Source: Porphyra umbilicalis
Taxonomy: Eukaryota; Rhodophyta; Bangiophyceae; Bangiales; Bangiaceae
Length of the DNA: 48,204 bases
Assembly (NCBI GenBank): GCA_002049455.2
Contig: KV919207.1
Coordinates: 1-48,204 of the forward strand
Direction of reading: 5' to 3'
Both the position numbers and the translations under genes were made by a program. Under the pieces are notes generated by a model. That model made no database searches. It was not told the DNA's origin and saw only the letters and a program-made list of their open reading frames with translations. Of this stretch, positions 22,158 to 48,204 are shown one piece after another (the first letter of the stretch is position 1; each line of letters begins with the position of its first letter).

Positions 22158-22166
22158 CTCCCCCAC
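22158..22166 (-). other. Copia polypurine tract
   Basis: GTGGGGGAG on the minus strand immediately precedes TGTTGG of the 3' LTR, the position required for plus-strand priming. Confidence 0.65.
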
Positions 22167-26767: not shown

Positions 26768-27057
26768 GTCAACAGTCATCGCACTATTGTGCAGGACAAG
26801 TCATGCGTGGCCCCGACGCTCAGAGCGCCATCAGTGGGCGTGCCACGCATACGAGGGCAGTCATCGTAGGTTGGTGGCAAGTTTCCTTTCGACCTCTGAG
26901 GGCTGATTGTCAGGGCTCCCTTTAGCTGGGACAGCAGTTCACAGGTGCTGGGTCAGCATTCTGCTCGTTGTCGGCGGTCATCGAGTTTTGACCGACACTT
27001 GACAGTGTCATGTCTATACTTAGCTGAGCAGAAATGACAGTTTGCGCCCCAAAAGCG
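26768..27057. other. Short spacer between copia and hAT
   Basis: No gene. It contains TGACCGACACTT at 26989-27000, an inverted match to the iterons at 45.5 kb, and the left hAT target duplication AAAAGCG at 27051-27057. Confidence 0.5.
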
Positions 27058-27749
27058 TAAGGTTGGCATGTCGGTAAATTTGGTCGATAAACGAAATCGG
27101 TAAGGGTCGGTATCCCGATCGATAATCGGTATTGTCGATTCGCCCAACGCTCGGTATATGTCGGTATGGTACTTATGTTGGTCTTTAATCCTGGGAGAAC
27201 TCGACCGATGCCATGCAACGAGAGAGGCACTCGCCAGACCCACGAGTCGCGAATCAGACAGACCAGCAAACCAGCCACGATACGTTTTTGAGCTCACGAG
27301 GCTCCTGTGTTTGGCATACAGACCCCCCCGCCCCACACCAACTAGCCCTGTGGCCACACCCAACGTACGCACCACCACTAGCCGGCCAGCCTACATACGT
27401 TTGATGGCGCATCGGGCACTCGCGTCAGGCACCCAGACCCTCGCACCCGATTCCAGCTCACGCTGTGGCCGCACCCTACGCACCGCCACCGGCTGAACGG
27501 CCTTGATTAGTTTACCAGGGCACCAGGAGCCCACGCCATGCACATATCACTCGGCCCGCAGTCGCGCTGACCCCCCCCCATTCACAACGGCCGTACACAG
27601 CAGCACCTCGGTGTGCCCCAGAGCTTTGTCCAGGACGCGACGCTGCTCGGTCCTGCCGAGGAGCACTGCAACTCTCCGTGTGCATATCGCTGCCCGCACT
27701 CCTTGCACCCATCTTTCCCTCTTATCTGCACTCCCTCACCCCCATCACG

Positions 27750-30251
27750 ATGCAGACGACCACGATGCCCGGGTGGAAGGCGTTTCGACGGACGAGCGAG
27801 CGCTACTTGCGGGCGGACGGCAGTGCGTCCAACTATTGGGTGGCCTATTGCATTGCGTATGAGCGCGCGTACGCGCGGTACGAGGAAGCTGTAGCCGCTT
27901 GCCAAGGCGACGACCAGGCGATTGCCAAGATTGATGTCGTGCGCCCCGCGGAGCGTCTCCCTGGGCGGTCTGATAGGATGCATCCTCATCTAAAGACCTG
28001 CAAGTTTATGGACCCGACTATCTTTGTTGTCGATGTGGACGGACGTGGCAGCAATGAGCCCCACACAGCTCCGGCTGCAGCGTCCTCCTCTTCAGCTGAA
28101 GTTGCCTCCCGGGAGTCAAAGGCGGCTTTGTGCCGCCGCCTGGGCTTGACCAGCCATCAGTTTCAAGGTGTGCGCGGCTACCTCATCGACCAGACGAAAC
28201 AACTTACGCCCGGGCCTAAGCGGCGCAAGGCGGACCCGACGCTCGACTCATTTTTCAGCCGCGACCTGTCGGTAGCGGGGAAGGGGGAGTTGGACATGCG
28301 TCTTCTCCGGTTGGTGGCTGATCGGCGTTTGCCGTTTGCGTTCGTGGAGAGCCAAGCATTCATCAATCTCGTTAGTCTACTTCGTTAGTCCGCGGCGAGC
28401 AGGCTTCCCAGTCGTCGCCAGCTCGGCGGTCCCATCCTCGACGCTGCAGCCGCAGACGCCGAAACCAAGACCCGTCATGCGGTAAGGGCCTTGCTCCGAG
28501 GATCGGCGCGAGCGATTTCGATGCTTGATGGCTACAAAACGGCTAACAACACCCATATCCTCGGAGCTGTGATCGGCATTGGCGCGGAACGCTACATTTT
28601 GGACGCTGAGGAGGAGGGCTACCAGCATCATGGCGTAGCGGAGGCGAGTGAGATGGCGTCCGTTATTGACAAGCTGGAGGCGGATGGTGATCTATCTATC
28701 GGATGCGTTTGTACGGACGATGCTGGGCAGTGCGGCCGCGCTCGCTGATTTCTAGCGTTGCGGTACCCGAAGCTGGTTTTTCTAAGATGCTTGGCTCACC
28801 AAGTCAATCTTTTGATGAAGCACGTCCTCCAAGATTCCAGTCTACGACCGACCTCTGAGGCCGCTGTTTCCGCGGCCAGCCTGCTCGTCCGGTCGTCCGC
28901 TAAGCTCCTCCCTCAAGCAAGAGCCTCGATGCACCGACTTTACGGCATCTCATTGGCTATCCTAAGCGTTTGCGAGACGAGGTGGAGTTCGCTGCAAATG
29001 TGCATGGCGAGCCTCCTTCGTGTGCGTGGGGCCTTGCGGTGCCTCGTTGCTGAGCTGGGGTCGGCAGCTCCCGACGCGCTTCTCCCACTGAATTCCGACG
29101 AATTCTGGAGGGAGCTGGCGGCGGCCGAGTGGGTCATTCGGCCTATCGCGCATGCATCCTTCCTTTTGGAGCGCGACGACACCACACTTGCAGACGCGTT
29201 TGGCATCTATGGGTCAGTGTACCAGCACCTCGCGAGTGTAAGCTCCCATCCCGGCCAGGCTCGCTTGTGTGCTGACCTTGAGCGTCGCTGGGGCGCGGAG
29301 GAGCAGGTGCTGTTCCTCTTGGCTTTTTGCTTCCACCCGCAGTACATGCATGTGGCCAGAGAGCTGCTAGGTCAAGACTGGCGGTCGTCACCCGTGCCGT
29401 TCTTTTCCACCCCGTGCTTGGCAAACGCCTCGGCCGACTACTTCGCCAGGTGGTTCCCAGACGAGGCTGCCAAGGCAAACGCCATCGTGCAGCAGATGTT
29501 TGACTTTTTTACTGGCGACGTTGAGCACCTGCTTTGCGCTCCCGCACGAGCAGACGACCAGTCCTACCAAACCGCTGGGTGGACCTGGCTGAAGTTTTGG
29601 GAGTTTCTTGCGATGAGTGGCACCTGCTCAGAGCTGGCCAAGTTTGCCCTCAGTCTCCTAGGATGCAAGCGGCAGACGGCGTCTGTCGAGCGGCTCTTCA
29701 AGGAGCATGCAGCTCAACAAAGCAAACCTAGGAACCGCATGGGTCTTGCAACCCTCAACAAGGTCACGTCTGTCAAGTGTGTCTATGATCAAGAGGATCG
29801 GCGACGGGCCAGCGTGCGTACCAAGTCAAGAAACCGCGTGATGGCAGCCGCAGAGCGCATCAGGTCGACACCTGAACAGTCTCGAGACGCTCCGCCGGCG
29901 ACAACTGGCGGGGAGGTGGATGACCCTTTCGCTGAGGACGCACCTTCGGCCTCAATCGACGTGTTGCACGAGTGGGCAGCCGCTTTGGGGGGTGCGGAGG
30001 ACGCGGACGAAGCGGTGCTCCACGATCTGCGAGGCGAGGTGCCCGCCTATATGGCGTCTGACTTTTCGGTGCCCGCTCTGCCCGAGCAAGCATGCCCACT
30101 GCCCCCTCATGACGTGCCTGGGTATCCACAAGAGGTTGTGTGGCGGTTGCGCAACTTCCGCGCCGCCAAGTTTCCTTTGCGTCATCTTGTTGGCAGCAGG
30201 GTCGGCGAGCAGTTTGCTGTCGATATGTGTGCCTTGATGCGTGGGGAATAA
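27750..30251 (+). pseudogene. hAT transposase with two in-frame stops
   Basis: One frame runs from the ATG at 27750 to TAA at 30251 but is broken by TAG at 28386-28388 and TGA at 28746-28748. The N-terminus (WKAFRRTSERYLRADG...H-x3-C) resembles a BED-type DNA-binding finger. The catalytic region has MLDGYKTANNTHILG (first acidic residue) and a VCTDDAGQ segment (second), followed by CLAHQVNLL, the C-x2-H motif of hAT transposases. The C-terminal dimerisation domain has WTWLKFWEFL, LAKFALSLLGC, TASVERLFKEH and KPRNRMGL. A Ser/Ala/Asp-rich tail of about 150 residues follows. The protein resembles DUF659-type hATs. Upstream ATG at 27678 is in frame but encodes a hydrophobic leader unlike the family, so I start at 27750. 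Confidence 0.9.
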
Positions 30252-30488
30252 ATGGCGTGGCTTGGCACGCAGTTGAGTCATTGACGCTGGGGCGAAGGGA
30301 CGAGTGCAAGCTAACCCAGGTCGGGCACGGTCGAGGTCGTGGCGCTGGTCGGGTGGAGTGCCGAGGCGAGCGGTTGGCACGGTCGGGGTCATGTGGTGGC
30401 CGTTGCAGTGTGTGACAGAGGGAGCGAACGCGAGTGGAGCTCCATCCACACATCCCACGTAATCGGAGTTATCATGAAAAACTAGAAT

Positions 30489-30528
30489 ACCGAGATCTCG
30501 GTACGAAATCGGTAAATCGGTATACCGA
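30489..30528. repeat. hAT subterminal palindromes
   Basis: Perfect palindromes ACCGAGATCTCGGT (30489-30502) and TCGGTATACCGA (30517-30528), both built from the TCGGTA motif that also recurs at 27070-27170 in the other subterminal region. Likely transposase-binding sites, by analogy with other hATs. Confidence 0.6.
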
Positions 30529-30802
30529 TCGGGAAACGGTATCCAGAATCGCAACGTTCGGTAAAAGGCAACCTTAAAAAGCGCCCCGTCCAATGTGGGG
30601 CGCGTGCCGCTTACGCACCAAAATCGCACTGTTAAGCGTGCCCTAAGAGCGCCCTCAAGCGCGCCCCGAGATGCGTTTAGCAACCCTACCCGCCAGCACG
30701 AGAACCGCGGTATGCATCCAGCATCAAAACTAAGGTGTTAAAGTACACAGACCCACACAATTGAGAAAATACAATTGGAGACAGACTCCTGAAGACCAGT
30801 AG

Positions 30803-30834
30803 TCACCTCTGGAAGAGGTGAGGAGCGAAGCTCC
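30803..30834 (-). ncRNA. Candidate Fanzor guide-RNA scaffold: two abutting hairpins
   Basis: Read on the minus strand: a GGAGC/GCTCC stem with a TTC loop (30834-30822) is followed without spacing by a perfect 8-bp TCACCTCT/AGAGGTGA stem with a TCC loop (30821-30803). Before the LINE inserted, these would have lain 4 nt after the Fanzor stop codon on the same strand. TnpB and Fanzor guide RNAs are derived from the 3' end of the gene and its downstream flank. RNA identity is inferred; only the structure and position are seen. A transcription-termination role is possible. Confidence 0.4.
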
Positions 30835-30915
30835 CTATTCACACCCCACGAGATGAACCTGGTGAACAGTCTACGATTACCCGCTCGAGGCGGCTCGAAG
30901 ACGAGTGGCTGTGCC
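30833..30915. repeat. LINE target-site duplication, left copy (83 bp)
   Basis: Matches 39082-39164 with two mismatches (81 of 83). On the minus strand it encodes the last residues of the Fanzor frame and its stop. It continues leftwards into the hairpins, so this copy keeps the original Fanzor 3' flank. Confidence 0.93.
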
Positions 30916-30987
30916 GGGCGAGACGGTGACGTGGCGGAGGGGTGCGTTGGGGGTCCGGGCACCCCCCCCCGCGGCGGCGCGGCGGCG

Positions 30988-33900
30988 ATGGACGTGGCGG
31001 CGGCCGGGGGGGCCGCCGCCGTGGCCGCGACGACGCGCGCGATCGCGGCGTTGCTCGACGCCGTCGCCGTGAACGCAACGGCGGCGTCGAAGCGAACGCT
31101 GCTGCTGCTGACAGTAGCGCATCTGACAGAGGATCGATTGGCTGGGGATGGTCCAATTTACGATTCTCGCCTTTCATTGGCTGGCGCGGCGCCGCTAATC
31201 GCTATTAGCGGCTTAGCCGGCGCCGCTATCCCCCCCACCCCCGCGTGCTCCCCCACCCCCGCCGCTGACCGCCCCGCCCCCCCCGCCCCTTCGCCCCCGG
31301 CTCCCCCCGCTCCTGCTGCTGCTGCCCCCCACCCCCCCGTCGACGGGGAACCCTTCCCGCTGCCGCCCGGCCGCCGCGGCCGCAAGGCCCGTCGAGCGGC
31401 GCGCCGGCGTGCCGCCGCCGAGACGGTGGCTGCTCACCTGCTCGCCGCTGCTCCCACCGGCGCCGGCGCCGACGCCGGCCTCTCCCCCCCTCGCGGTTTT
31501 TGCGCTCCCCCCCCCGCGCTGGCGGCTGCGGCTGCTGCCGCCGCCGCCCCCGCCGCCGTCGACCAAGTCGCCGGGCCCCCCGCCGGCGCCGCCAACGTCG
31601 GTGCCCGCGGGTCCCCCCCCCCCCGCTACCGGCCGCCCCGGCGGCGGCCGCCCAGGACGCCGTCGCCGCGCCTGCGACGGTTCCGCGCGCTGCCCCCCGC
31701 CCGCGCCCCGCGACATGGGCCGACGCGGTGGTCGGCGGGCGTGGGGCTGCCCCTGCGGCCGTGACCGGCGGCCGGCGGCCGCCGCCGCGCGGCGGCCAGA
31801 CCAAGGACGCTGTGGCGGTGGCCGCCGCCGCCCCGGCGGCGACAACCAAGGCCAAGGACGGCGACGCTGCCGCGGCGGCGGCTGCTCGGCTCGCCCGCGC
31901 GACCGCCGCGGGCGCCGCGCTGCGCCGCCTCGCCGCCGGGTCGCCCCCGCCGGTGACGCTGCGGACGGTCTACGTCCGCGGCGTCGCCCGCGAGTCGCGC
32001 ACCTGGCGGCTGCGTGAGCTGCTGTCGTGCGCCACGGGGCTGCCCAAGCGAGCGGTCGTCGACGTGGACCGCGCCGGCGACCTCGCAGAGGTGCGCCTGC
32101 TGGCGCAGCACGCCGATGCGTTTGAGGCGGCCGTGGCGCTGTCGCCCGCCGCCGCCACGCTGACGCTCGTGCGCGGCGTTGACCCCCTCTCGCCGTCGCT
32201 GTTGGGGGCCCCGCGACGACGCGCGCTGTCGGCGGAGGCGGCGCGCGAGGTGGCGCGCGCCTTTTTCGTGGCGCGCTGCCGCGCCAAGCTCGCGTCGCTG
32301 GACGAGCGGGTGGGCATGCCGCCCGCCCAACGGGACGCCCTCCGCCCGCTGCTGCACCGGGAGCTCGCCCCGTACGTGCAGCAGCTGGGTGCTGGTGGTG
32401 GCGCCATGGGCGGCCGTGCGGTGCCCCCAGCGGCGGCGGCCGCTGGGGCCGACGCTCCGCGTCGCGGCGCCGCCCGGTGCGGGGCGGACGGCGCCCGCCT
32501 GGTTCCGCCCCAGGGGGGGGCGGCCGCGGAGGCGGTCGACGCCGACCGGCCGGGAGACGAAAATTCCCAGCCGGCGGCTTCGACCCCCGCGTCGGTTTCT
32601 GCCGTACAGTCGGAAATTTCGGTATTGCCGCCCACCCCCCCCACGTTTTCGGCCGCCGCCGAAGATGACGCGGCGGCCGAGGAAAATTCTCGCGCCGACG
32701 GGGTCGCGGTCGATCCCGCATCCGGGATCGGGATGCGGGTGGTCGCCACGACGGCGACCGATCCCCCCCCCGGATCGGATCGCGCCTCGCCCCGGCGGGC
32801 AGAAAATTTTGCTGTGTCCGCCTCGCCCGGCGGCCGCAGCACGCCCCCCACCAGCCCCCGCATTGCGGCGGACCCCCCGACGCCCCTGGCGCGCGGGGAT
32901 GGCAGTTCGCTCGCGGCCGCCCGCCTTATGGCTGCGGCGGGCGGGGTGGTGGATGCGGACGTGTCGGCGGGCACTGCTGCCTCGCTCCCCCCGTTGGCCG
33001 ACGCGGTCGCCGCGGCTGTCCGGCGCGTGCCGGGCGGCGCTGTGGGCGCTTTGACGCTGGCGGCGGCGCTGTTCCGCGTCGCCGACGGCGCGGTGGCGGA
33101 GGCCGCTGACGCGGCCGCCCCACCGCGTCGCCTCGATCCGGCCGCCGCGGAGGCGCGCGCAGATGCGGCGGAGGCGCGCGGCGTGCGCGTCGCCGCGTCG
33201 GCCGCCGCCACGGCAAACACGGACTTGGCGGTGTCGTCGCCGGCTCTGTCCAGCCCCCCGACGTCGCCGTCGCCCAAGGGGCGACTCGACGCCGAGTCGG
33301 ACGTCGCCCTGAGGACCGCGCGTGGGTTGCAGCGGGCGGCCGCGCGCATCGTGGCCGCCCACGACGCGCCGGTCGCCGTCGCGCGCCGCCTGCGGGCGAC
33401 CGCCCTCGCGGGCATCGCCCGTCGTGCGCGGGGCGCCGCCGCGCGCGCTGTCGCCGCTGCTGCCGGCGCCGACGCCGCTGCCGCCGCGATGGTGCGCCTT
33501 CCCCCCGACATGGGGAGGGACGACTTCGCCGTGGGGGGGGGGCGGCCCTGAGCGCGCCTGCCCCTGGTGCGCGCGCTCCCCCACCGACGCCCGCCGCTAA
33601 GCGGCGCGTGCGGGCGCCGCCCGACTCCGCGTCGGGGCATCGCCTCGCCTGTGCGGGCGGCGCGCCGCCTGTCGGCATTGCCGGACGGACGCGCGGTGCC
33701 TGGCTGCGCGCTGCCGCTGTGGCGCCGCCGCACGTGGCCGGCGTTGCTGCGGGGCCGGTCATCGCTGCGTCGCCGGCAGCGGCGCACGCTGCTGCCAGCG
33801 TGCCGAGTCCCCTACGCGTGTCCAGCGAGTCAGATGTCGGGGAGGGGGTTCCCGCGGCGCCCCAACCTGAAGGTTGGCGTGCCGCGAGCGCCCTCTGCTC

Positions 33901-34030
33901 CGCGTCCGACGCGCACGCGCGTGCGGCTGTGGCCGTGTCGGCACCATACGAGCACGGGGCTCGCGTCACCGCGCCGGCGGTCGCGCCGCCTGCTGCCTCC
34001 CCCCCCGTTAGCGACGCGGCCGCCAAATGA
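30988..34030 (+). CDS. LINE ORF1 protein (two frame changes at homopolymers)
   Basis: Starts MDVAAAGG at 30988 and ends at TGA 34028-34030, roughly 1010 aa if the frame changes are artefacts. Protein-like sequence passes from one frame to another at a run of 12 C (31613-31624) and at a run of 10 G (33533-33542). The product is Ala/Pro/Gly-rich with a basic patch (GRRGRKARRAARRRAAAE). It contains one folded-looking segment, TLRTVYVRGVARESRTWRLR...VVDVDRAGDLAEVRLL (about 31960-32110), which has the look of an RRM-type RNA-binding domain as in other LINE ORF1 proteins. No gag knuckle was seen. RNA binding is an inference from the element type. Confidence 0.6.
31192..31211. repeat. Perfect hairpin in LINE ORF1
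   Basis: CCGCTAAT and ATTAGCGG form an 8-bp stem with a CGCT loop, flanked by further GGCGC/GCGCC pairing potential. It lies in the short AT-richer segment of ORF1 and may be structural RNA; no known role. Confidence 0.5.
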
Positions 34031-37000
34031 GTTCATCTGGCGGCGACTCGCTGCCCCTCCCGGGGGTGGGTCGGCTGCCGCGCCCGGTAGGGCGGCGCGG
34101 CCTGGCGAGGCGGCGGGGCGCAGCCCCCCCCGCAATCACAGGACTGGCCGTTCCCGGCCGGTGTACTCAGACGGTTTGACCACCTCCCCCGACGACAGTG
34201 ACTGTCCCCCTGCCCCTCGTGGCCTGTCCCTCGCGCCGTCCGGCGCGGGTGACCTCGCCTTTGCCCCCCCCCCCCCCGCCCGCTCTACTTCCTCTGGCGC
34301 TTCTGTCCTCCCCCCTCCCCCCGGCACTCCTGCTGCTCGTTCGTGTTCCCCCCCCCCCCGCTGGCCTCGACGGCTGGTGGGGCTGCCGCGGCCGATGGGC
34401 ACCGCTGCCCGGTCGCGAGCTGCGGCGCGACCGCCGCGGGCAACCCGCTGTGGCTCGGCGTCCGCGCTCACCTGCGCGACGCCCACAAGGCTGCTGACGT
34501 GCCAGCGTCGGTGCTGTCGGCCAACCGGCTGCGCGGCTGCCGCCACTGCGGCGCCCTGCTTCCTTTCGGTCGGTCGACGACCGCGCGCATGGCGTTGGTG
34601 GAGTACGAGGCGGGGTGTGCTCAGCGCCCGCGCGCGCCTGCCGCCGCGCTGGCGGCCCGCGAGATTGCGAGCTCGCTGGCGGTGGGTAGCGCCGCGACCG
34701 CGTCGACCGTTGCCGCGCCGCCGCCCTCTCCTGCTGTGGACGGCGGGTCTGGTGCGGCTGTTGGAGCGGCCTCGCCCATTGGCGTCTGCCCGCTGCTCAG
34801 CTGTGGTGCGGCCGTCGGGGAGGGCGACGCGTTCGTCGAGCACCTGCGCTCGGCGCACACGGCGGTGGACGTGCCGCCCGAGCGCCTCGCGGAGGCGCAG
34901 CTGGGGGGCTGCCGGCACTGCCACCGCCTGTTTTCGGTGGTGCGGACGGCGTCCGGGCATCGCCCCCTGCGCTCGCACGAGCCCAACTGCCCGTCGCACC
35001 CGCTGCTGCAGGGGGGGGTGGTCGTGCGGCGGCTGTGGCGGCAACCACCGCGGCGGGTGCGGCACCGGCGACGGCGGCCGACCTGGCCAGCTGGGCGACG
35101 CGCACGTGCTGCGTGGTGGGTGGTTGCACCACCACGTTTCGCGGCGCCGTGACGCCGCGCACGCTGCCGGCGCACCTGGCGCGGTCGCACAAGCTGGCGG
35201 CGGTGCCGGCGGAGTGGGTCCGCGCGCTGCGGTTGGCCGGGTGCCGCTACTGCGGCCGCCCATACCGCACTGTCGTCGACTGGCAGCGGCGCACCTCGCT
35301 GTCGAGGCACGAGGCGCGGTGCGACGAGCGGCCACCGCGCGAGCCTGACGCGGAGGCCGACCTGCCGCCGCCGCCGGCGGGCGACGCGGGGGGCTTCCTG
35401 CCCAACGTTGGCGACGACGCGCACCCGGCTGTGGGCGGCGCCGCCGTCGACGGGGCGGCAGCTGGCACCACCGCCCCCCCTCCCCCCCCAGCCCAAACAA
35501 TGTTTTCGGCTGAGCCGAGCGAGTGGGCGCGGCGGCGCGGGGCTTTTCTGCTGCTGCAGGCCCCAACCCCCGACTCGTGGCCTGCGCTGGTGGCGTCCGG
35601 CGCGCGCACCGCCGACCACGTCGCAGCTTCTCTGCTGCCCGCGTGGCGGCAGCTGGGTGCCGACGCGCTCTCCTGGGTGCGGCGCGAGCCGGGCAACGCC
35701 ACCGCGTGGCTGTGGGTGATGACCCTCCCCTCCCTTCTGTTCCACGTCCCCGCGCGCACGCGGGGCAGGGGGGAGGGTCCCGCGCCGCTGAGTCACGCGG
35801 CGCGCGTGTCCGCGCTCCTCGACGGGGACTTTGCGGCCGCGTTGCGCGACCGCAATGTCGGTGTGTGGCGCGAGCCGCCCCAGTCTGTGGGTACGGCCCC
35901 CACGCCCGCGGCCGGGGCGCCACCCGCGTCGCCTCCCCCACACCCGCTCCCCCCCCCCCCCCCCCCCCGCCCGACTCGCCGGCTGCCCCCCTCCCCTCCC
36001 CGCGGGTTGGGCCGGGCGGCCCCGTCCGCCCGACGAGCGCCCGGCCGCGCGTGACACACGTGCAGCGGCGGGCGCTCCGTCAAGTGTGGCGCGGCCGCCT
36101 CAGCGCCGCGGCGCGCACCCTGCAAGGGGCGCCGGTGGCACCCCACACGGGCGCCGCCTGGCAGGCGGCGCGGCGGCTCTTCCCGCGCGCCACGCCGGGG
36201 CTGGCGACGAACGCGTCGGTCGAGGCCGAGTTTAGCCCTGAGCTCGACGCCGCCGCCGCGCACGGCGTGGCCGCGGGTGCCCCGCTGGGCTTGTCGGCGG
36301 CGACGGTGGTGGCGACCATCCGGTCTGCTGCGCGCGGCTCCGCCCCGGGTCCGTCCGGCCTCCGGATGGAGCACCTGTGGGCGCTGGCGGAGGACGGGCG
36401 CGACGCGCTGGTGGGGGTCGTGCGGCTGTTGGCAACCGCGGCGGCGACAACGGTGGTGCCCGCGGTGGCGAGTCACGCGCTGGCGGGCGCGGAGCTGCTG
36501 CTGCTCGTGAAGCCGGGGGCGCCCGACAATGACGGGGTGCCCAGGCTCCGCCCAATTGGGATGCCGGAGACACTGCGCAAGCTCGTTGCGGGGTCGCTGG
36601 CGCGCGACCTCCGCGCGTCGGCGGCCGCGCTGATGGCTCCGCTGCAGCTGGGCATCGGCGTTCCCAACGCGTGCGAGCGCCTCTTGCACGCGTTGGAGGC
36701 TCAGCTGGAGGCGGCGCCGGAGGAGGGGGTGCTGCTGCTGGACTACAAAAACGCGTTCAACCTGATCTCCCGCGCGGCGGCGCGGGCGTTCATCGACCGC
36801 GCCTTTCCGTCCTTGACGCCGCACGTGGCGGCGACGTACGGCGGCGCTCCACCGGCGGTGTACGGGTGGGCGGCGGCGCGGCGCGGCGGCGACGGTGCCG
36901 GCGACGGCGACGGCCGCGACGGCCAGGGCGGGGCGGGCGACGGCGGCGACAGTGGAGTGGGCGACGAGGACCCCCCCGGCCTAGTCGGCGAGGACGAAGA

Positions 37001-39021
37001 CGCCCACCCGCCCCAGTGGGTGCCCCCCCCCCCGCTCGACGGGTGCTCACCGTCGAGCGGGGGACGCAGCAGGGGGACCCGTTGGGGCCCTTTCTCCACG
37101 CCGCGGCTCTGATGCTCGTGCTTCTGCGCCTGGCACGCCTCCACCCCGCGCACGCCATCGACGCATTTCACGATGACGTGCGCGCGGTGGGGCCCGTGGC
37201 TGGGCTCGGCGCGGTGATGGCGTCGGCGGCGCGGGTTGGGGCGCTCGTCGACGCGGAGCTGTCGCCCACCAAGTGCGTGGCGTGGTCGCCGGGCGCACCC
37301 GCGGCGCCGCCCGACCTGACAGCCCAGTGGCGGTCGGAGGGGGTGGTGCAATTTTCTATCCCTTTCGGCAACCGCGATTTCGTAGCGGCGCGCGTCTCGG
37401 CCATGGCGGCCGAGCACGCGGCGGGGGTGGCGGCGATTGTCGCCCTGCCGGAGGAGGAGCTGCAGACCAAGCTGCTCCTCCTCCGCCTGTGCGCCGGGCC
37501 GCGCGTGACGTACGCGCTGCGGTCTCTCCCCCCCGACGCGGGCGCCACGTTGGCCGCCGCCGTCGACGCGGACGTACATCGGACGGTGCTCTCCCTTCTG
37601 TGCGACGCGACGGACGGCGCTGAGGTGCGCGCGGCGCTGCTCGAGCGCGCCGCGCTGCCCGTCCGTATGGGGGGGCTGGGCGTTGGCGATCGTTCGCGTG
37701 TGGCGGCGGCGGCTGTCGTGGCGTCCTGGGCGGACGCCGCCGTGCACTGCCACAGGGCGGCGGCGCCGGCGTTGGCCGACCTGGCTGGTGCCCTGCAGGA
37801 AACCGACCCGGTGGGTCCTGCGGCGCCTGCCGGCGCCCAGGTTGACACCCGGGCGTGGCCGGGCGCCCCTCCTGCGGGCGCCGCGGCTGCTGCTGGTGCC
37901 GCTGGCGCTCTACCGGCGGCCGACGCGACGCCGTCGGGGCGGCGCCTCCCCATCCTCCCGGGTCTTCTGGCGGCCGTGGCCGCCCTGAACGCCGCGTGCG
38001 GCGCGGCGCCCGCACCCCCCCCAACCGCCCCCGACCTCCTTGCCCCCCCTGCCGACGCCCATATCGCTGCACCCGGCCTACTCCGCGTCGCGGGGGGGAC
38101 TCGGCTGAGTTGGGCGCGACTGCTCGGGGGGCGCGGGCCCCGTCCCAGCGGGACCTGGCGGGGCCCGTGCACCTTGCCGCGCTGGAGCGGCTGCGGGCCT
38201 CGCTGCCGGACAATGCCGACCTTGCGCGGCTCGCCGACTTCCACGGGGACGGCGCGGGCCTGTGGCTGTCGGCGTTGCCGGCACCCGGCCGCCTTGCCGG
38301 CGCCATGGGAGGGAGGGCCATGCGGATGGCTACCCGCCTCTGGCTTGGCGTACCCCCTGTCGCGCGGACAGCGGTGGCGCGCCGGTGCGCGTGCGGCGCG
38401 GCGGTGGACGCGTACGACGTCCACTTCCTGGCGGCGTGCAGGGCCGCCTCGTGCATCTCGAATGCCACGTTTCGCCACAACGCGCTGGTGGAGCGGACGG
38501 CGGACGCGCTGCGCGCGCACCCGCAGTGGCGGGACGTCGTGGTGGAGGCGTCGTCGGCACTTTTCAGTGCCGGAACTGAGACGCTTCGCCCGGACGTGCG
38601 GGCAGTGCGCGTGCAGACTGGGGGGGTGGTCTGGGGCGACGTCGCCGTCGCGTCGGTCTTCACCGACAAGGTCGTCGCGGACGTGGTTGCCCGGCCTTCC
38701 GTGGCTGTGGCGGCGGTGGGGCGCGAGGCGCGCAAGGTGCGCAAGTACGCGCCGCGCCTCCCCGCCGCCGACCCGCCCGCTGTCTTCACCCCACTGGTGT
38801 GGGAGGTGTTCGGCCGCGTGGGCCCCGCGTCCGCAGACTTTTTGCGACCGGCCGTCGGTGGTCCGGGGCGCTCGCGCGCGCTCGCGTCGCTGCTGACGGA
38901 CGCGTCCGCTATCATTTGGCGCTATAACGCGCGCATGCTTTGTGAGGGTTTTTCGAGGTGTGACGCGAGGGGGCGGGCCACTTTGGACGCCCCAACTGCT
39001 TTGGCCCGAGTTTCCGGTTGA
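34027..39021 (+). CDS. LINE ORF2: zinc fingers, reverse transcriptase, restriction-like endonuclease
   Basis: Starts at the ATG that overlaps the ORF1 stop. About 34405-35330 holds three paired fingers: each C2H2 unit (e.g. CPVASCG...HLRDAH, CCVVGGCTTTFRG...HLARSH) is followed by a C-x2-C...C/H unit (e.g. CRYCGRP). RT spans about 36330-37600: PGPSGLRMEHL, LRPIGMPETLRKL, motif A LLLDYKNAFNLISR, motif B RGTQQGDPLGPF and motif C FHDD. A CCHC-like knuckle CACGAAVDAYDVHFLAAC (about 38390) precedes RPDVRAVRV...GDVAVASVFTDK, which fits a PD-(D/E)xK endonuclease. Frame changes occur at runs of C or G at 34124-34131, 34348-34359, 35011-35018, 35949-35968 (20 C), 37023-37033 and 38092-38098. Without those, the product would be about 1,660 aa. 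Confidence 0.8.
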
Positions 39022-39081
39022 GTGGGGCCTCGGCCTCATTTCGTAGTTAGCGGACATAAGGTCCGGGCCTGATGAGCAGCA

Positions 39082-39164
39082 CCCTATTCACACCCCACGA
39101 GATGAACCTCGTGAACAGTCTACGATTACCCGCTCGAGGCGGCTCGGAGACGAGTGGCTGTGCC
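39082..39164. repeat. LINE target-site duplication, right copy (83 bp)
   Basis: Second copy of the 83-bp repeat. It is contiguous with the Fanzor coding sequence to its right and abuts the 3' end of the LINE to its left. Confidence 0.93.
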
Positions 39165-42100
39165 CCACGGCTGGCGCGGGGCTGGCAGCAGCCATCTGGC
39201 CGACGTTACTCGTCGCCAGGTCACCGCTTGCCGACGCAGCAGCTGCGTCGTTCGCCCCGTCTGCCACCACACCCAGCGCCTCTACCCGCACCGTTGGCGC
39301 CGCCACTGGCACGGCCGTGGGGGCCGTCCCCGCCTCTGCGACCGGCGCGTCGGCGACGACAGGTCGGCGCCACGGCTCCCACGACGTGGGTGAACACCGC
39401 GTCCACCCGTAGCCGGCCTCGTAGGTACCCGCGTCGATCGCAGCCGCGTGCCGCACCGCCTGTACAGGGTCTGCCTGGGGTGGCGCGCGTGACACGGTGT
39501 ACCCCCGGATGTGGGGGAAGATGCTCCGACCCCGCATGCTCTTGATGGCAATCTTGGACATGTTGCGCGCCGCGTTGGTGTCTCGCCCGACGTACGAAGC
39601 CGGGCAGGCGACGTTGGTACACAGCTTGACCCCCCACAGCGCCAGCGGGTCGGTCCCAAACGCCCACTTGCCGTGAGCCGCAATCGCCCGCAGCACCTTT
39701 GTCCGCACCGCCTCTGCGTGCTCCTTGGCGCGCTGGGCAGCCGCACCGTCGCGTGGACCCGACCGACTGCCGGTCGTCACACCCCGTCGCGCGCGCCGGC
39801 CGCCGCGAAGGGGTGAGGCGCGCTTGGCCGCCGACGCCGACGCGCGATGTGCGTAACTGCTTGCCGCCTTGAGGGGCGTCAGGTCGACCGGCGAGTCGGG
39901 CGACACGTACGTGTTGCACAAGCCGTGGCCGCACTCTGCACACGTCTGGCTCGTATTGTGCTCGTCCACGTACACGAGGTGCACATGTTTGGCCATGCGC
40001 CGCACGAGGTCGACGCTGCCGGCGCGCGGCCGACACCGCCCAATCGCCAAAACCGCCTTGGTACCGTCCACCGTGCGCCGCAGCAAACCGCTCGTCAAGC
40101 GGCGCGCCAGCACCGCCGCGTACCGGTTGCGCTGGATGAGGGCGTGTAGCCGCGCCTTTCGCCGTCCTTCCATCGCGGCCACCCCGTACGCCGCCTGATA
40201 GGCGTCTGTGTAGGTGCGCGCAATGCGCACAGTGGCCGCCACCACCCACGCGCCCCACGTCGTGACCTTGAGGGAGCACCCGGCCGTCAGTGACTCGCGC
40301 GGCACGCCTGGGTGTGCCGCCGCCCACACCGCCACCGCTGCCGCCTCGGCGCGCCTCGTCATACCGGCGCCCGTCGCCTCGCGGTACGCGCCTTTGGAGA
40401 CTACCAGCGTCGCACCAGTGGGCGGGACGCGCACGCGCCGGCGCCCCCCGGCGGCGGCCGCACGTTTGAGTGCGGCACACAACACGCGCAAGCGGTCGGC
40501 CGACGGCAGCGACGTGCCGGGCGCGCCGAGCTGCGGGGGCGCAGCGGGTGCAGCAGCGGCCGCCGCAGCCGCCACTCGCTCTGCCGTGCGCAATGCCGCC
40601 GCCGTCTGGTGCTTGTCATGCGCCGCGCGCTGCACGACGCACGCGGCGTGTGCCCCACTGTCGACCGACACTGCACGCCATGCCGCCTCTGCGTGAGCCG
40701 CCGCTTCTGTCTTGGCCTTGACAGCCGCCGTCGCGTGCGCCGCCTCTTTGATCAGGGCCGCCTCGCCCACCCACACACACACGTGGTTGGACAGGTGCCA
40801 CGGTTGGACGTTGCCGCCATTGATCGTGGCGTGCGCGGTGGCGCGCATGCGCGTGAGGATGGCCCGGCGGCGGCCGGGGGCGCTCGTCCCCCGCTTGCGG
40901 GCCACCTCTTGCCGTTGAATCGGGGTCAGCCACTCGTCGCCAAAGGCCGGCTGCTTGTACCGCCGGCGCTTGGGGGGGGGGGGTCCACCGCGTCTGTCGG
41001 CACCGTCGGTGCGTGCTCCAAAGGCAGCAAAGACGCTTGTGCCGCGGGCGTGGCCGCCGGCGGGCCCACCAGATGTGTACGAGTCCGCTTTGGGGGAGAT
41101 CCCGCCGCCCCGGTCGACGCACCGAGCGCTCCACGGCCGCGCTTTTTGGTCGTCTGCCTCACCGCGTCACCGCCGCCGACGGGAAGGCCCGCCGCGGTGG
41201 CCTTGGCCGCGCGCGCAACGTCAGCCAACTTGGCGTGCAGCGTGTCGACGGTCGGCAAGACCCGACCACCCCGCCGCACGAGGCACTCGGCAGCGGCGGT
41301 CGCGGCCATGGCCGCCCGCGCGAGCGCGTCGCCCGCAATCCGAAGCGCCCGGTACGCCCGATACGCGTGCAGGTGCGGCGCAGGTGACTGAACAAACGGC
41401 ACCGCCCTAGGGCAGTAGGCAGCGACAATCGACGCGACGCCCGGGTCCCACCCAATAAACGCCAGCTCTTTGACGACGTCGGGCGAAAACGCCATGCGGT
41501 CCTGCTGCGTCCGCACGCTCGCCGCCTCGGTGGCCCTCCCCCCCCCCCCACGACCGTCACTTGCAGCCTTACGACGCGCCCGCCGAGCGGCCGCCGTCGA
41601 CGCGGCCGTGGCGGGGTGCCGTATGGTAAAGTGCACGCCGACACCGTCCGACACGATGGAGGGCCCTACCACCGTCTTGGCGCCGACAATGCGCGCGCGG
41701 CGGAGCAGCGTTTGAATGAACAGCCCGTCGGTTGTCGGCGCTGGCAGCGACACCCCGGCGGACGCCAGGCGCCGGCGAAGCAGCGCGCCGCCGACACGCG
41801 CGTACGCGGTGCACGTGGCGGCTCGGCCGGGTGACGTGTCGATCGCCTCGATGCCCGCACGGATGCACAACAGCTGGGCATATTGGAACAGCGGGTTGAT
41901 GTGCAGCGGCCGCTGTCGCAGGGCCGACGTGTCGAGCTGGAGGAGACAGCGCCGCCGACCGTCACCACCGGCGTAGACTAGCACAGTGTCGTACGCCAGC
42001 GTGGCCCCGGCCGCCATGGCAGCCCCATCCGCCGCAAACACTTTGCCCGCCGGCCTCTTGAACGACGGCGGGCGCGTGCCGTCGGCGGCTTGCAGGCCGG

Positions 42101-44015
42101 CAACGAGGGCCGCAATCAGTGCCGCGCGGCGCTGTCCGTTGAGACCGCCGGGGGCCTGCGGGTAGACGTCGTGAACGATGCACTTGGCAATGGCCTTGAC
42201 CGCTGACGTGACGTGCGTCACATAGTGGTTTTCAAAAGCCGTCGCCACGGTGGCCCAACCAGACGTGTCGCCCGGACCCGGCAGCAGCGTGCTGCACGGC
42301 AACCGGCTTGGCTCGGTCACCGCGTCTGCCACCGCCGCCGACGCCGCCACAAAGGCAGAGTAGTCGCCATCGCCTTGGGCGGCGGCCTTGATGTCCCCGC
42401 GGGGCTCGACGTGTGCGCCTCTACCCGAGCAATCGACGCACGCCCGCCGGGAGGCGCCGCCAAACGCGTGGACACCGCGACAAGAGACGGTCGAAGCGAC
42501 CTGCTTCCAGGCAAGCCTGTGGTTGTTTGTCAGCGACGCCGGCACGGCCGCGATAAACTCGTCGAGCGTGCGCCGGCGGTGGCCGCCGCCACCGCCGCCA
42601 TCCCCACTACCGCCGCCGCCCCCTCCCGCACCCTGCCCGCCGCCACCACCATCGACGCGCTCGAGCAGGTACCGCATCGTGCCGTCCATGACAATGGACA
42701 CGAGCCGCAGATGCTTTGTCTGTGCCGTGGCCAACTCGGTCAGCGCGGCCGCCCCCGCGGCAGCGTTTGCGACAGCGGCGGCGGTCCCCGTCGGCGCGCG
42801 ACGGCTCGACGTCGTAGGCGGGCGCCGCGTCGGGGGCAAAGAGTTTGCCGGCCCCCCTGGCGCCAGCCGTCGTCGGACACCAAAAAACCGGTCGACCGAC
42901 ACGGGAACGGTCGTCGTCACCTCCCCCGTCATGCGGTGCTGGTCGACGCACCCCAAGTCGCGCCCGCGGTCTGCATTGTGGCCCGACCCGCCCTGGGCGA
43001 CGGCTCGCAGCGGACACACAGCGCTGGCCCGGGTGTGGCCACGCGCGTGGCACGCACTGCACTTGTTGTTTCCGCTGCCGGCCTTGGCGCCCTTGGCCGC
43101 CTTGGCCGCCTCGCCACGCGCCGCGTGCGCCGCCTTGGTGGCAGCGTCAGCCGGACACGTTTTCACATTGTGCCCCGTCGCCCCGCAGCCGCCGCATCGA
43201 CGCTGGCGGCCACGCGTGCCGCCGCCGCCGCGCGCCGTGGCGCCAGCGGCGCCACCATTGCCGTCGCCATCGTCGTCGCCTGCGTGGTCCCCCGCGTCGG
43301 GCTGCACCATTGGGATCAGGCCCTTGACCGCCGACAAGACGCTGCCCGCCGCGTGACGCGCTCGCGCGCAGAGGCGCCTGCACGCCACCCGGACGGAGGC
43401 GTCGGCTCTTGTGTCGGCATCGGCGGGGGGTGCCGCGGCGCCCTCATCACCGTCGTCTGGTGCGGGTGGCCAGGGCGGCGGCACCGTCACCGCGGCGACG
43501 GCATGCAGCACGGCAGTAGAGGCCGACGTGGCGTCGTCCATTGCCGCCGACGCGGGCGACCCAGTGCCCCGCGCGTGCACCGGCTTTGATGCGAGGAGGT
43601 TGGACAGGAGGGCACTCGCGGCACGCAAGCTCGCCACCGGCCCCGCATCACCGGCCGCCTCACACGCGGCGACGGCGGCGGCAGCCTCCACCGTTGCCGA
43701 CCGCACGGCAGACGCCGCACTCTGCCGCGCGCTGTCGAGGTGGCCACCCGCCTTGATTGCCGCGTCCTCGCCGGCCGTACCGAGGAGCGTGACCTCGTCG
43801 TCGTCGTCGAGGTCTGCGCCCACAGGCCCAGTCACACCCCCGCCATTGTCCCCATTGTCGTTGCCGCTCGCCGTCGCCTCGTGGGGCGGCGCTGTCGCCA
43901 AACTGGTGGTCGTCGTGGGGCGCCGCGTCGTGGGACAGTGGCCGCTGCGACGCGCCCGAAGCGCTGTCGACGTGCCGGACGCCCCCTCCTCGTCGGTCGA
44001 CGACTGGTCGTCCAT
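39088..44015 (-). CDS. Fanzor (eukaryotic TnpB-like RNA-guided nuclease), frame-shifted at a C12 run
   Basis: Two frames make up the gene. Part 1 (44015-40926, 1029 aa) starts at an ATG in a strong GCCATGG context. It has an acidic Ala/Gly-rich N-terminus, a zinc knuckle CGGCGATGHNVKTC (residues 274-287), a second, CSACHARGHTRASAVC (319-334), a polyglycine linker (about 456-478), and RuvC-I FIGWDPGVASIVAA with Asp857. Part 2 (frame of 40905-39088) continues with basic PKRRRYKQPAFG..., then a long helical region, the Fanzor-type acidic motif YVDEHNTSQTC (Glu at about 39963), the split zinc finger C-x2-C...C-x4-C, and RuvC-III GRDTNAARNM (Asp at about 39582). The switch falls at a run of 12 C (minus strand; 40971-40982). 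Fanzors cut DNA using a guide RNA from the gene's 3' flank and live in transposons. The 3' flank here is separated by the LINE. Family is clear; activity is unknown. Confidence 0.88.
40971..40982 (-). other. 12-C run where the Fanzor frame changes
   Basis: Upstream of the run the frame carries RuvC-I; downstream it ends after about 17 codons, while the adjacent frame continues as conserved Fanzor sequence. A one- or two-base length error, a real indel, or slippage would all explain it. Confidence 0.8.
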
Positions 44016-44993
44016 GGCGGGGGACGAGCGCACACGGGCGGGGGAGGGCTTGACGTCCTCAAGGCGGTGGCACGCCCTTGCCGCCCGCTAGGGGTGTCGG
44101 CGCGGGGCGGCACGGCGGCCAGGCCTGTGGGCGCATGGTTGTGCACGGCGCCAGCACCCATCACACCTTTTATGGGAAACGGCACGGGTAGCGGTGGCTG
44201 GCTTGCCGCGGACCGCCACACGACACGGGCGGGACCAGACTACCCTGCGAGACAGTCTAGGAGCTGGTTGCGGGCCGGCCGAGCGCACGACACAAACACA
44301 CCCTCGCGTGCAGGCACTCCCGCCGCGCTCTCCTCCTTTCTCAGCTCCACGCGCCACGCCGCCGCCGGCTCGTGCAGGTGGGTGTACCCACAGGCCGCCA
44401 TGCGGGCACCGGCGGCCGTGCGAGAAGCTGGGCGGTGGGTCGGCGGGTCGGCACCCGGTGGGTCGGTACCCGATGGTGGGAGAAGACAATGTACGGACGA
44501 ACGGGCAGCGCCAGTCCCCCCTCCCGCCCCCCCCCCCCCCCCTCCGCGGAGATGGGGTGTGGAAAATTTTGACGTCATACGCGCGGGCGTGTCACGGACA
44601 GAAGAGGTGTTGCGCGTTGAACGCCACCGTTGGCCATCATGGAGACGCCTGGACGACGTCTTGCCGACCGCTGCGGTGCGGCGGCGTCGCCGCATAGAGC
44701 ACATGCGCGCCATACAGGTCCCACGGGTCCGACGGATGGGCCCAGCCACAGCGCTGCGACGACCCCACGCCCATCCCGCCGGGGCGTGCGACCACCTTGC
44801 CGAAACACCCCCTTCTTCTTGGTGTTGAACGCGCCGACATCGATGAAACCCGGCCGCACGAGTCGTCGTGGCGGTGGGGGTGGTCGGTCGTGTGGGGTGA
44901 GAATTTGGACCATCACGGCTGGTGTCGGTCGCCTGGGTGGCGCCGCTGCACTAGAGACCCCCCACCATACCTGGTGAGGGGGGGGGGGGCGGG

Positions 44994-45113
44994 GACAATG
45001 AGGACGATGAGGAACACCAGGACAATGTGGACAATGAGGAAACAGACAATGAGGACAATGAGGAAATTGAAGAAAACGGACAAGGAGGACAAGGAGGATA
45101 ATGGAAACAATGA
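44994..45113. repeat. Degenerate GGACAATGA/GGACAAGGA tandem array
   Basis: About 120 bp of imperfect 9- to 12-bp purine-rich units (GGACAATGA and variants), immediately after a run of about 13 G. Confidence 0.85.
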
Positions 45114-45210
45114 GGACATTGAGGCATCCGAGAGTACGGGGCGGCCGTCTCGGGAACGACCAAACACCGGCATTCGGGCGCTCGGTGGCGGATGGGCCCC
45201 ACGCCAACAC

Positions 45211-45270
45211 CCACCGACAGCAACCGACACCCACCGACACCCACCGACACCCACCGACACCCACCAACAC
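45211..45270. repeat. 10-bp CCACCGACAC tandem array
   Basis: Six head-to-tail units, three perfect and three with one change. Confidence 0.9.
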
Positions 45271-45474
45271 GAGGCGCGCGTCTCCACCACCACCACCGAC
45301 GGGCACGAGTGTGAGAGCGCCGACTCGCGCATTGGCCAGGCGACACCGTCGCGGTTGCTGCCGTCGGATCGGTAGTTGCGTCGAGTCGCGCCAATTGAAA
45401 AGCAGCCGCCCGCGCAGTCTTAAATACAATTTCACAGTGGTCTACAACCCGCCTCAAGTTCGGTACCATCGGTC

Positions 45475-45574
45475 AAAGTGTCGATCACTGGGTTAACGTG
45501 TCGGTCATTGGGTTAAAGTGTCGGTCACTGGGTTAAAATGTCGTTCACCGGGTGAAAGTGTCGATCATCGGATC
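45475..45574. repeat. Five 20-bp iterons (AAAGTGTCGRTCAYTGGGTT-like)
   Basis: Units start at 45475, 45495, 45515, 45535 and 45555; consensus core GTGTCGGTCACTGGGTT. Units 1-3 differ at one to three positions; 4 and 5 are more diverged. No spacers, so not CRISPR. A 12-bp core, AAGTGTCGGTCA, recurs inverted at 26989-27000. Confidence 0.92.
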
Positions 45575-45941
45575 GTCGGCAGCGGGGTTATGTCTGGTGG
45601 TGGGCGGTCAGTTTGGTGGCGCCTCTGTCGTCTCCGGATCATACACGTAGTTGTGTACCCAAATTGCACTATCAACTCTTGAGAGGAGGAGGTGCTGCGG
45701 TGTGGTTGTTGGTGCGACAAGGCAACGACGACAGGCGCTCCGGCACATGCACGCACTCTAGGTCGCTGCTCCCCAGCGCCTTCAGCATTTCACTCTGTCC
45801 CTCCCCCTGGCCATCCCAAGTCTCTCACCGTGTCCGTTGTGCTTGTACTTCCCCACCTTTGTGCGCTTTTGTGGATTCCCTGTAGACGCTTACAACACCC
45901 GACGCGTTCCGACAGCCGTATAGAAGCCGCTCGTATGATCG

Positions 45942-46260
45942 TCAGCCTCGGTCTTTTGGACGAAGGTCCGTTGCATTCAAAAAACATCTCGCCTGTGGGG
46001 GCAGGCGCGGCGGGCCCCCCCGCCGCCCCCCCGCTGACGCCCCCCCCCCGGCGGCGGCGCCGAGCGCTTCGGCGGTGACGCGTTCCCCCCCCGACAACCC
46101 CCCCGACACGGCGGGCTCCCTATGGGCGGCCACCACCCGCACGACCTGCCCAAACAGCGCCGCCTCGTCGAGGTCGTCGAGTGGCGACTCATAATTGCCG
46201 TCGTGCACTGAAAAAGTGATGCCAAAGAGGGGGTCCTCGCGCAACTGTACAAAAAACTAA
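45942..46260 (-). CDS. Probable C-terminal exon of an unrecognised gene
   Basis: After a TTTTTTGTACAG acceptor-like site, the minus strand reads LREDPLFGITFSVHDGNYES, then PLDDLDEAALFGQVVRVVAA, then a Gly/Arg-rich tail to a stop at 45942. The first part has a natural composition and is unlike chance frames here. The acceptor and the first 14 codons are duplicated at 46533-46591. I do not recognise the family. The upstream exon cannot be assigned securely; a Pro-rich frame at 46700-47139 is a candidate. Confidence 0.4.
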
Positions 46261-46359
46261 TGGAGGCTGCTCCCATGACCGCTCTGTATCGAGAAGCGCC
46301 GTGAAAAGACCTATCCGCGGTGCTTTTTTCACAACATACGCAACCCCTCCCAGACGCAT
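46202..46359. repeat. 158-bp direct repeat, copy A
   Basis: Matches copy B at 46533-46691 with about four differences including one T-run length change. It spans the 14-codon exon start and most of an intron-like sequence on the minus strand. Confidence 0.93.
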
Positions 46360-46532
46360 CAATTTCAATGGTTCGGAGCCTACGAAAAACGCGTTGGCGA
46401 CGCTTCAGCTTGTCAAACTGCCTTTTTTGGGCTGTGGCATCGGATAGGACTCGCAAAGGAGCATCGCGTGCATATGCGAAACTCACAGACGTGCCACGCA
46501 CCGGCCGTTGAGCGACGGCTCGACTTTATAGA

Positions 46533-46691
46533 CGTGCACTGAAAAAGTGATGCCAAAGAGGGGGTCCTCACGCAACTGTACAAAAAACTAATGGAGGCTG
46601 CTCCCATGACCGCTCTGTATCGAGAAGCGCCGTGAAAAGACCTATCCGCGGTGCTTTTTTTCACGACATACGCAACCCCTCCCAGAAGCAT
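46533..46691. repeat. 158-bp direct repeat, copy B
   Basis: Second copy, offset about 331 bp. Sequence beyond either end is unrelated between copies, so the duplicated block is well bounded. Confidence 0.93.
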
Positions 46692-47139
46692 GACAGTCTA
46701 TGGTGCGTCTGCCGGTGCCGTCGCACCGCGGCGACCGCCGGTGGTCGCGACGCGGGGTGACTTCTGGCCGGCGCCAGGGCAGGGGGGTGCGCTGGGGCGG
46801 CAGCGACAGTGCAGAGAGCGCGGGGACCGCCGCTATAACGTCCATGGATTTCTTCGTTCCTAACGCTGCGGGTTTCCAGTTGGAACTGCTGCCCAACGAT
46901 GAAGGCTGCGACGCGTCGACCGGCGCCAGCCGGTCAGCGTTGTGGCGGGGCAGCGGCCAGCAGGATGCTTTGCGGTGGCGTGGATGGGGTCGTTGTCCGG
47001 AGGGGTAGGAGTATTCGTCTCTGGGTACAGGGGGCACCCACTCAGACGGTGGCGCACGCCACTTTTCTGGCTGTGGCCGCCTCGTGGCCGTCGGCGCTGG
47101 CGGAGACAGCGGCGGCGGGACGTCGCCGCTGGTTGGCAA
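46692..47139 (-). CDS. Possible proline-rich exon (low confidence)
   Basis: The minus-strand frame after a GCTCAG acceptor-like site reads LPTSGDVPPPLSPPAPTATR, later SLGSSSNWKPAALGTKKSMD and VIAAVPALSALSLPP. It has no ATG at its start, which suits an internal exon. It would lie upstream of the duplicated exon blocks on the same strand. No domain is recognised, and a Pro/Ser/Arg-rich frame can arise by chance at this GC content. Confidence 0.25.
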
Positions 47140-48204
47140 CTGAGCGGCACGTCACGATGACGCCAGAGCGGTTCTAGCGTTGACTTGAAGGGGGTAGTGG
47201 GGTGACTGAGTAGACGGCGGGGGTGGCTGCAGGTCGGAGAGTGTGGGAGGTCTGCGGCGGGGGACGACTTGCTCCTGGAGCTGAATGAGCAGAGTTGGGG
47301 ACAGGAGAATACCACGCGTGGCCGGCCTCCTCTTTTAGGCCGTCCGCCGACCACACATATACCTTCGTCGCGTCCCGGGTGGGTCGCATGCGTCTGTTAC
47401 TGCACCTCTGCCGCAACATTGTCGTGTCGCACGCGGCGACGACGGTGAAGGGTGACGGCGGAACAGGAAACCTGGCAGGTGTTGCGGAGTAGGTGACGCA
47501 GACGGTGTGGTCAGGTGGTGTGTGGCAGCGGAGGTGCGGGAAAGAGGTCTCCGCAGGGTTGGTTGCCTTTTATCGGTGCGAAAACAGACACCGCGGAGCC
47601 ACGTTCTTTTATTTTTTGACAAACTCTTTTCACGCCACAGCGCCTGCCGCAGGGACACAGTTGTGTGTCGACATGTGTTTTGGGGGTGGCGAGGTGGAAA
47701 ATGGACGGTGGAGCGGGTGGTGCATTCGTGGACGAGAAATGTCATGCTGGAGACGCTGACTGTATTTGGGGTTGGTCTTGTGCCTTTCCCGGCCCGCCGC
47801 TGTCGGTTATCCTTACATAACGACTGCGCACGCCCGCTGCGCCACCCCCTTTCGGCAAATGACGTCGTGATAGGCACCCTCCCGGCCACGGCGGCCCACG
47901 ACCCGGCGCCCAAACTGTCTGCCGGCATTTTTATTTGGTCGGGTCCTCCTGTCCAGGCTGTCCAGGGGAAGCAGAGAATCACAAAACAGGACGAGGTCGC
48001 AATAAAAAACATACGCAGATAAACGAGGGATGGTGGCTGCCGCGCACAGTGGTGCAGGGCACCGAAGTCGTAGACCGAGCCCCGTGACGTCAGTTATCAT
48101 GTACCCACTGTGGATCCTGGCGCAGATGCGTGCCGTGTCTTCCTCCTCGCAGCATGTGGACGACATCACACCAATCACAGCAACGCACACACTCACACAC
48201 CACT
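47140..48204. other. Right edge, nothing identified
   Basis: Frames on both strands are short, Arg/Ser/Thr-rich and without motifs. GC is lower than in the centre of the window. No RNA gene or repeat was recognised. Confidence 0.4.

Follow-up and report, generated by a model that had tools for sequence, protein, structure and literature searches.

The window analysed here, a stretch of 48,204 nucleotides of Porphyra umbilicalis DNA (contig KV919207.1), contains on its minus strand a gene that likely encodes a Fanzor-type nuclease, judging by its motifs. The gene is read in two overlapping frames. Frame 1 (44087-40926, with an ATG at 44015) contains two CCHC knuckles and the RuvC-I motif FIGWDPGVAS, and frame 2 (41166-39088) contains E-x6-C-x2-C, C-x4-C, and RD-x-NAA. 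The start codon at 44015 is backed by P0009, one of the relatives described below, whose N-terminus is the matching MDDQ. The codon-position G+C content is alike in both open reading frames (ORFs): 0.73/0.64/0.80 in the first and 0.71/0.63/0.81 in the second. The N-terminal CCHC knuckles suggest a role in nucleic-acid binding; the Pfam family PF15288 matched two stretches of the frame 1 ORF with 21.6 bits, slightly below the cut-off of 22. The features of the locus are collected in Table 1.

Table 1. Coordinates of the predicted nuclease gene, its motifs, the 83-bp repeat, and the adjoining block.
Feature	Position	Strand	Basis or remark
Putative Fanzor-type nuclease gene, ~1,640 codons, two overlapping frames	39088..44015	-	Six-frame translation and relatives
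First CCHC zinc knuckle (CGGCGATGHNVKTC)	43155..43196	-	Frame 1
Second, CCHC-like knuckle (CSACHARGHTRASAVC)	43014..43061	-	Frame 1
SDG segment, possible counterpart of the Fanzor1 wedge-domain TDG	41643..41651	-	Also in P0005, P0006, and P0007
RuvC-I FIGWDPGVAS; codon of the putative first catalytic Asp at 41447 (residue 857)	41430..41459	-	GWDPGVA in P0005 and P0006
Variable linker with frame change and 12-base C run	40951..41162	-	P0004 in one frame here
Relocated putative catalytic Glu, E-x6-C-x2-C	39961..39963	-	Same in P0001, P0002, and P0003
C4 zinc finger, 103 residues between second and third Cys	39604..39942	-	Insert shared with P0001-P0003
RuvC-III Arg-Asp, putative third catalytic residue	39580..39585	-	RD in P0001-P0003
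Right copy of the 83-bp direct repeat, covering the 3'-terminal codons, the stop codon, and 6 further bases	39082..39164		Sequence comparison
Retrotransposon-like block, 8,166 bp, frames broken	30916..39081	+	Zinc-finger-like, reverse transcriptase, C-terminal Cys-His, and PD-x14-D motifs
Left copy of the 83-bp direct repeat (2 mismatches)	30833..30915		Repeat sequence alone; remainder of the gene absent
Two adjacent perfect hairpins, candidate native 3' flank/right end of the Fanzor element	30803..30834	-	On the outer side of the left repeat copy, at its edge

The preliminary description of this locus had named four motifs in a fixed order on one strand and had placed the second acidic residue in a DExxTS segment, and the six-frame translation agrees with it on both points: the four motifs follow each other in that order on the minus strand within 39088-44015, and the Glu stands six residues before a zinc-finger Cys. 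The Glu codon of DEHNTSQTC is at 39963, the codons of C-x2-C are at 39942 and 39933, and those of C-x4-C are at 39621 and 39606; in GRDTNAARNM, R is encoded at 39585 and D at 39582. A loose pattern of the finger and RuvC-III (E-x6-C-x2-C, then C-x2-5-C, then [RK]D-x-NA) had one match in the six-frame translation of the window and none in 60 first-order Markov shuffles.

Fanzors are eukaryotic relatives of the CRISPR nucleases. Their molecular fingerprint, as described in PMC10711439, is a DPG plus a glutamate six residues ahead of the zinc finger. Both halves are found here, the DPG in RuvC-I (FIGWDPGVAS) and the relocated glutamate (Ealt) as E-HNTSQT-C-AE-C. All four cysteines of the C4 finger are present, though the finger is split, and six residues separate it from the Arg-Asp (CPASYVGRD), which falls within the spacing C4 finger-X(5,50)-RD. 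The marks of a prokaryotic TnpB are absent: RuvC-I reads DPG rather than D-hydrophobic-G, and the Glu precedes the finger by six residues, not by ~50. Pfam family PF07282 (TNB) matched frame 2 with an E value of 9.6e-6 and 26.1 bits against a cut-off of 26.3, the match spanning only 22 residues.

Three protein searches revealed nine close relatives, P0001-P0009, which are 66-93% identical to the query by BLASTP over 10-100% of its length. Distant Fanzors were not among the matches of these searches, and the third one (residues 360-580) returned only P0001-P0003, already known. To judge from their sequences, the relatives are fragments, and none of them spans the full-length protein. The DPG is found in two of the nine (P0005 and P0006); the relocated Glu and the RD are each found in three (P0001, P0002, and P0003), with Y replacing the D before the E in P0003. 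The relatives that do not have a given motif, as far as they are aligned, end short of that stretch or exit the frame earlier. P0007 and P0009 include stretches that we read from the alignment as out of frame relative to the family, as would be expected of decaying copies. A PF07282 match was found in three of the nine, above the cut-off in P0001 (33.2 bits) and slightly below it in P0002 (25.2 bits) and P0003 (25.4 bits).

P0004 is open from ~15 residues past the RuvC-I Asp, through the frame change, to ~25 residues before the Glu, while P0005 and P0006 link the knuckle region with RuvC-I in a single frame. Because of this continuity, we take the two frames to be parts of one gene of ~1,640 codons and of one protein. 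Within the linker, none of the frames has a clear codon-position preference. In a by-eye comparison, P0006 also shifts frame within the linker, but into a frame other than that of the window, which marks the linker as a hot spot for length changes. The frame change may merely reflect a homopolymer run that was misread in sequencing or misassembled, with the frame of the organism intact; we give this possibility serious weight, somewhat short of an even chance. The 12-base C run lies inside the frame overlap, P0004 is continuous, and the adjacent retrotransposon-like block is also frame-broken, in several frames, which makes indels or assembly errors in G+C-rich runs likely here. A genuine small intron of 212 nt, with GT at 41162 and AG at 40951, would likewise leave the reading frame intact and appears rather unlikely. 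The splice sites fit by eye, the phase is kept, both exon edges fall on codon boundaries, the weak codon-position signal would suit an intron, and Chlamydomonas Fanzor1 genes with five or ten exons have been described (PMC3627910); however, P0004 continues here in one frame with similar residues, the shift of P0006 ends differently in the manner of an indel hot spot, and the breaks in the neighbouring block are of the same kind.

The 3' end of the gene lies within an 83-bp direct repeat, and the two copies of this repeat enclose a block bearing reverse transcriptase (RT) motifs, an arrangement that is a new observation. The similarity stops sharply at the gene side and within ~14 bases at the other side. 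By-eye translation of the left copy gives SSSSRLERVIVDCSPGSSRGV, the reading that P0003 also has. At both mismatch sites, the left copy agrees with P0001 and P0003 (SSSS, CSPG), and the gene itself has SSPS and CSRG instead, as though drift had affected the copy attached to it. The RT motifs of the block are DYKNAF at 36741, QGDPLGPF at 37070, and FHDDV at 37166; zinc-finger-like motifs lie within 34406-35322, and the stretch 38386-38640 contains PD-x14-D and a C-terminal Cys-His motif. We take these motifs to be those of an R2-like retrotransposon of the restriction-endonuclease type (RLE), without long terminal repeats (non-LTR). On the simplest reading of the sequence, a retrotransposon would have been inserted just past the stop codon, duplicating ~83 bp of its target site.

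It is unlikely, in our estimate, that the repeat is no target-site duplication and that the left copy is the remnant of a second Fanzor element which the retrotransposon-like block adjoins by chance. At the two differing residues the left copy is indeed nearer to P0001 and P0003 than the gene of the window is, and a target-site duplication of 83 bp would be long. However, the copies sit at both edges of the RT-bearing block, their similarity breaks off abruptly next to the gene and within ~14 bases at the far side, and truncation of a remnant at the identical base would be a coincidence. Exceptionally long target-site duplications are also reported for R9 elements, which are relatives of R2 (PMC12203849). 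Duplications of up to 443 bp have been described beside Chlamydomonas Fanzor1 elements, where they flank the element itself (PMC3627910).

The explanation that we favour, and consider quite probable as a whole, is that the locus represents one of several related copies of an element encoding a divergent and oversized Fanzor-type, probably Fanzor1-like, nuclease, and that its right end was displaced by a retrotransposon. Homology predicts that an RNA from the right end of the element, directly past the stop codon, would be bound by the protein and that its RuvC site, made up of D (41447), E (39963), and D (39582), would cut DNA matching the guide; both RNA guidance and DNA cleavage are proposed by analogy. 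The insertion of an RLE-type non-LTR retrotransposon would have shifted the native right end, together with any guide RNA, ~8.2 kb away, and the native right-end stretch would now begin near 30832. With the right end so displaced, the copy's own guide RNA in place is probably no longer made, and the copy could act only with RNA supplied by other copies. The 83-bp repeat would thus point to the true right end of the element and its likely guide RNA, which would otherwise be sought in the wrong place. As a separate observation, the repeat together with the RT block raises the possibility of a retrotransposon that lands site-specifically at Fanzor right ends. A more far-reaching version, in which giant Fanzors form a subfamily whose N-terminal part bears CCHC knuckles and whose zinc finger is split, with some copies still active and with right ends that are preferred by an R2-type retrotransposon producing 83-bp duplications, seems to us a long shot.

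At the proposed native right end, the 196-nt flank of the left copy folds with a z-score of -1.78 (11 of 200 shuffles were equally good), which is not exceptional, and the best fold retains only the smaller of the two hairpins; for the flank of the right copy, the z-score is -0.76 (44 of 200). Rfam gave no match at gathering scores downstream of the stop. No inverted repeats were found between 28000-30930 or 38900-39170 and 44000-48204. The search of 36000-48204 for terminal inverted repeats gave 53 inverted pairs, 25 of them among the matches listed, and these were read as G+C-rich chance matches.

When comparing the predicted protein with Fanzor1, the group of eukaryotic TnpB relatives from diverse transposons to which SpuFz1, GtFz1, and PpFz1 belong, the DPG in RuvC-I, the Glu six residues before the finger, the C4 finger, and the RD are common to both, as is the eukaryotic transposon setting; SDG stands where TDG may be expected. 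Published lengths are 600-700 for most Fz1 (PMC11423790) and up to ~800 residues for Fanzor1, with insertions in REC, RuvC, and the zinc finger (PMC10711439), so that the gene of the window appears to exceed the usual size more than twofold and is about twice the largest Fanzor1 of the latter description. The RuvC-I Asp is residue 857 here and 383 in SpuFz1, and the distance from Asp to Glu is ~495 residues compared with 158 (D383, E541; PMC11423790). The protein further departs from Fanzor1 as known from published descriptions in the two CCHC knuckles of its N-terminal part and in the 103 residues that interrupt its zinc finger. In a red alga, Cyanidioschyzon merolae, CMe-1A has been described as a Fanzor1 element whose class is not known and which lacks terminal inverted repeats, with a consensus of ~3 kb (PMC3627910). 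Compared by this description, the two are alike in having a Fanzor1 in a eukaryotic element and no terminal inverted repeats, whereas CMe-1A is shorter than the ORF of the window alone. Retrotransposons near or in Fanzor genes are already known: Gypsy/Ty3 insertions have been reported at Fz loci of Spizellomyces punctatus (PMC10432273). No literature naming both Fanzor and Porphyra was found.

TnpB-like proteins from a viral collection offer a contrast. A relocated-glutamate DNA pattern fetched 19 loci (L001-L019), of which 17 had a readable frame and 14 were distinct after trimming. They share with the window gene the DE-x2-T[ST]-x2-C-x2-C segment and RD-x-NA, but all 17 readable proteins have D-L-G, 114-127 residues before the segment, where the window has DPG. 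Because the pattern required a short finger, the D-L-G result is a contrast and not an unbiased sample; of two patterns with a longer finger, one recovered five of the same 19 loci and the other had no matches. In a profile comparison, the partner was an alignment of 14 of these TnpB-like proteins, three of them shortened by the chosen start. This comparison, a single one, aligned HVHLVYVDEHNTSQTCAECGH, 21 residues around DE...C-x2-C, to the same TnpB-like segment with a probability of 45% and an E value of 2.2e-4. A search of the viral contigs with the C-terminal part gave five pattern matches, none of them a confirmed relative, and a tblastn search of plasmids with the C-terminal segment returned 32 records; the 15 among the matches listed, at E values of 5 to 10, are chance matches.

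Several results weigh against the explanation of a Fanzor-type element displaced by a retrotransposon. The ~495 residues (1,484 nt) from Asp to Glu lie outside the D-X(125,275)-[TS]-[TS] spacing that Bao and Jurka give for Fanzor (PMC3627910); the interval is still ~424 residues when the 212-nt linker is removed as an intron, and P0004 by itself covers 457 residues of it in a single frame. The wedge motif, 68 residues before the DPG, reads SDG and not TDG. The NCBIfam TnpB model, with its cut-off of 100 bits, scored just 12. In the profile comparison with the viral-collection alignment, the RuvC-I half had no match (probability 0.4%). No Fanzor came up when the PDB was searched by sequence, with either part or with an alignment as the query: part 2 had no matches, part 1 had 30, all in the Gly-rich stretch, and the alignment had a single irrelevant one (E 1.5). 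AlphaFold2, with five sequences for each of the two parts, gave predicted local distance difference test (pLDDT) values of 33.0 and 32.5; these models are unusable and, although counted among the unfavourable results, as predictions weigh neither for nor against Fanzor identity. The Fanzor element's own terminal repeats or target-site duplication were not recognised. As for the insertion, besides the length of the duplication, BLAST lengthens the repeat to 97 columns (93.8%, gapped), adding ~14 bases on the side away from the gene, so that the repeat lacks a perfectly clean edge. The Pfam matches to the block include no RT or endonuclease and are weak ones, such as zf-BED (E 0.094, below its cut-off); three ORFs of the block had chance matches and no RT in the PDB; and the interpretation of the repeat is based on a single locus.

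The short extent of the matching segments, with no global similarity found, and the abnormal spacing of the motifs could also suggest an unrelated nucleic-acid-binding transposon protein that acquired a TnpB-like zinc segment by chance or domain capture and is no RNA-guided nuclease, but three separated catalytic motifs in the correct order, with the rare pair of DPG and relocated Glu, their presence in relatives, and the absence of the finger pattern from all shuffles make this very improbable.

The preliminary description of the locus as a Fanzor nuclease gene is partly supported. The DPG, the relocated Glu, and the eukaryotic surroundings speak for Fanzor-type identity, with the qualifications that the frame is interrupted, that the motif spacing is aberrant, and that another transposon probably separates this copy from its right end. 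By its sequence, the predicted protein is oversized and architecturally unusual. Its size, the SDG, and the host make us lean towards Fanzor1 rather than Fanzor in general. This copy is probably decaying, and it is doubtful that it is functional. If the insertions and knuckles belong to a working protein, the range of Fanzor size and architecture would be widened, and a route by which Fanzors gain extra nucleic-acid contacts could be shown.

The surroundings of the gene are those of a G+C-rich eukaryote, in line with the eukaryotic host named in the preliminary description. The host genes of the window encode a TMF1-type protein, an EF-Tu-like GTPase, and an AN1 zinc-finger protein, and a minus-strand copia-type gag/pol element is flanked by direct repeats of 143 bp (22018-22160 and 26628-26770, 97% identical). 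Bacterial contamination was rejected because eukaryotic host genes and retrotransposons are present in the window. The statement that Fanzors are few is no longer current: PMC3627910 describes them as widespread among the transposable elements of eukaryotes. Other repeats and remnants can be noted in the window. A hAT-like transposase remnant occupies 27113-30534, with an ORF ending at 30251 (PF05699, E 0.015, below the cut-off) and short imperfect inverted repeats near its ends. Direct repeats of ~174 bp (46202-46375 and 46533-46707) are 94% identical and have 157 bases between them. Upstream of the Fanzor gene, a tandem repeat with the 20-nt unit GGTTAAAGTGTCGATCACTG is present in 4.8 copies at 45471-45567.

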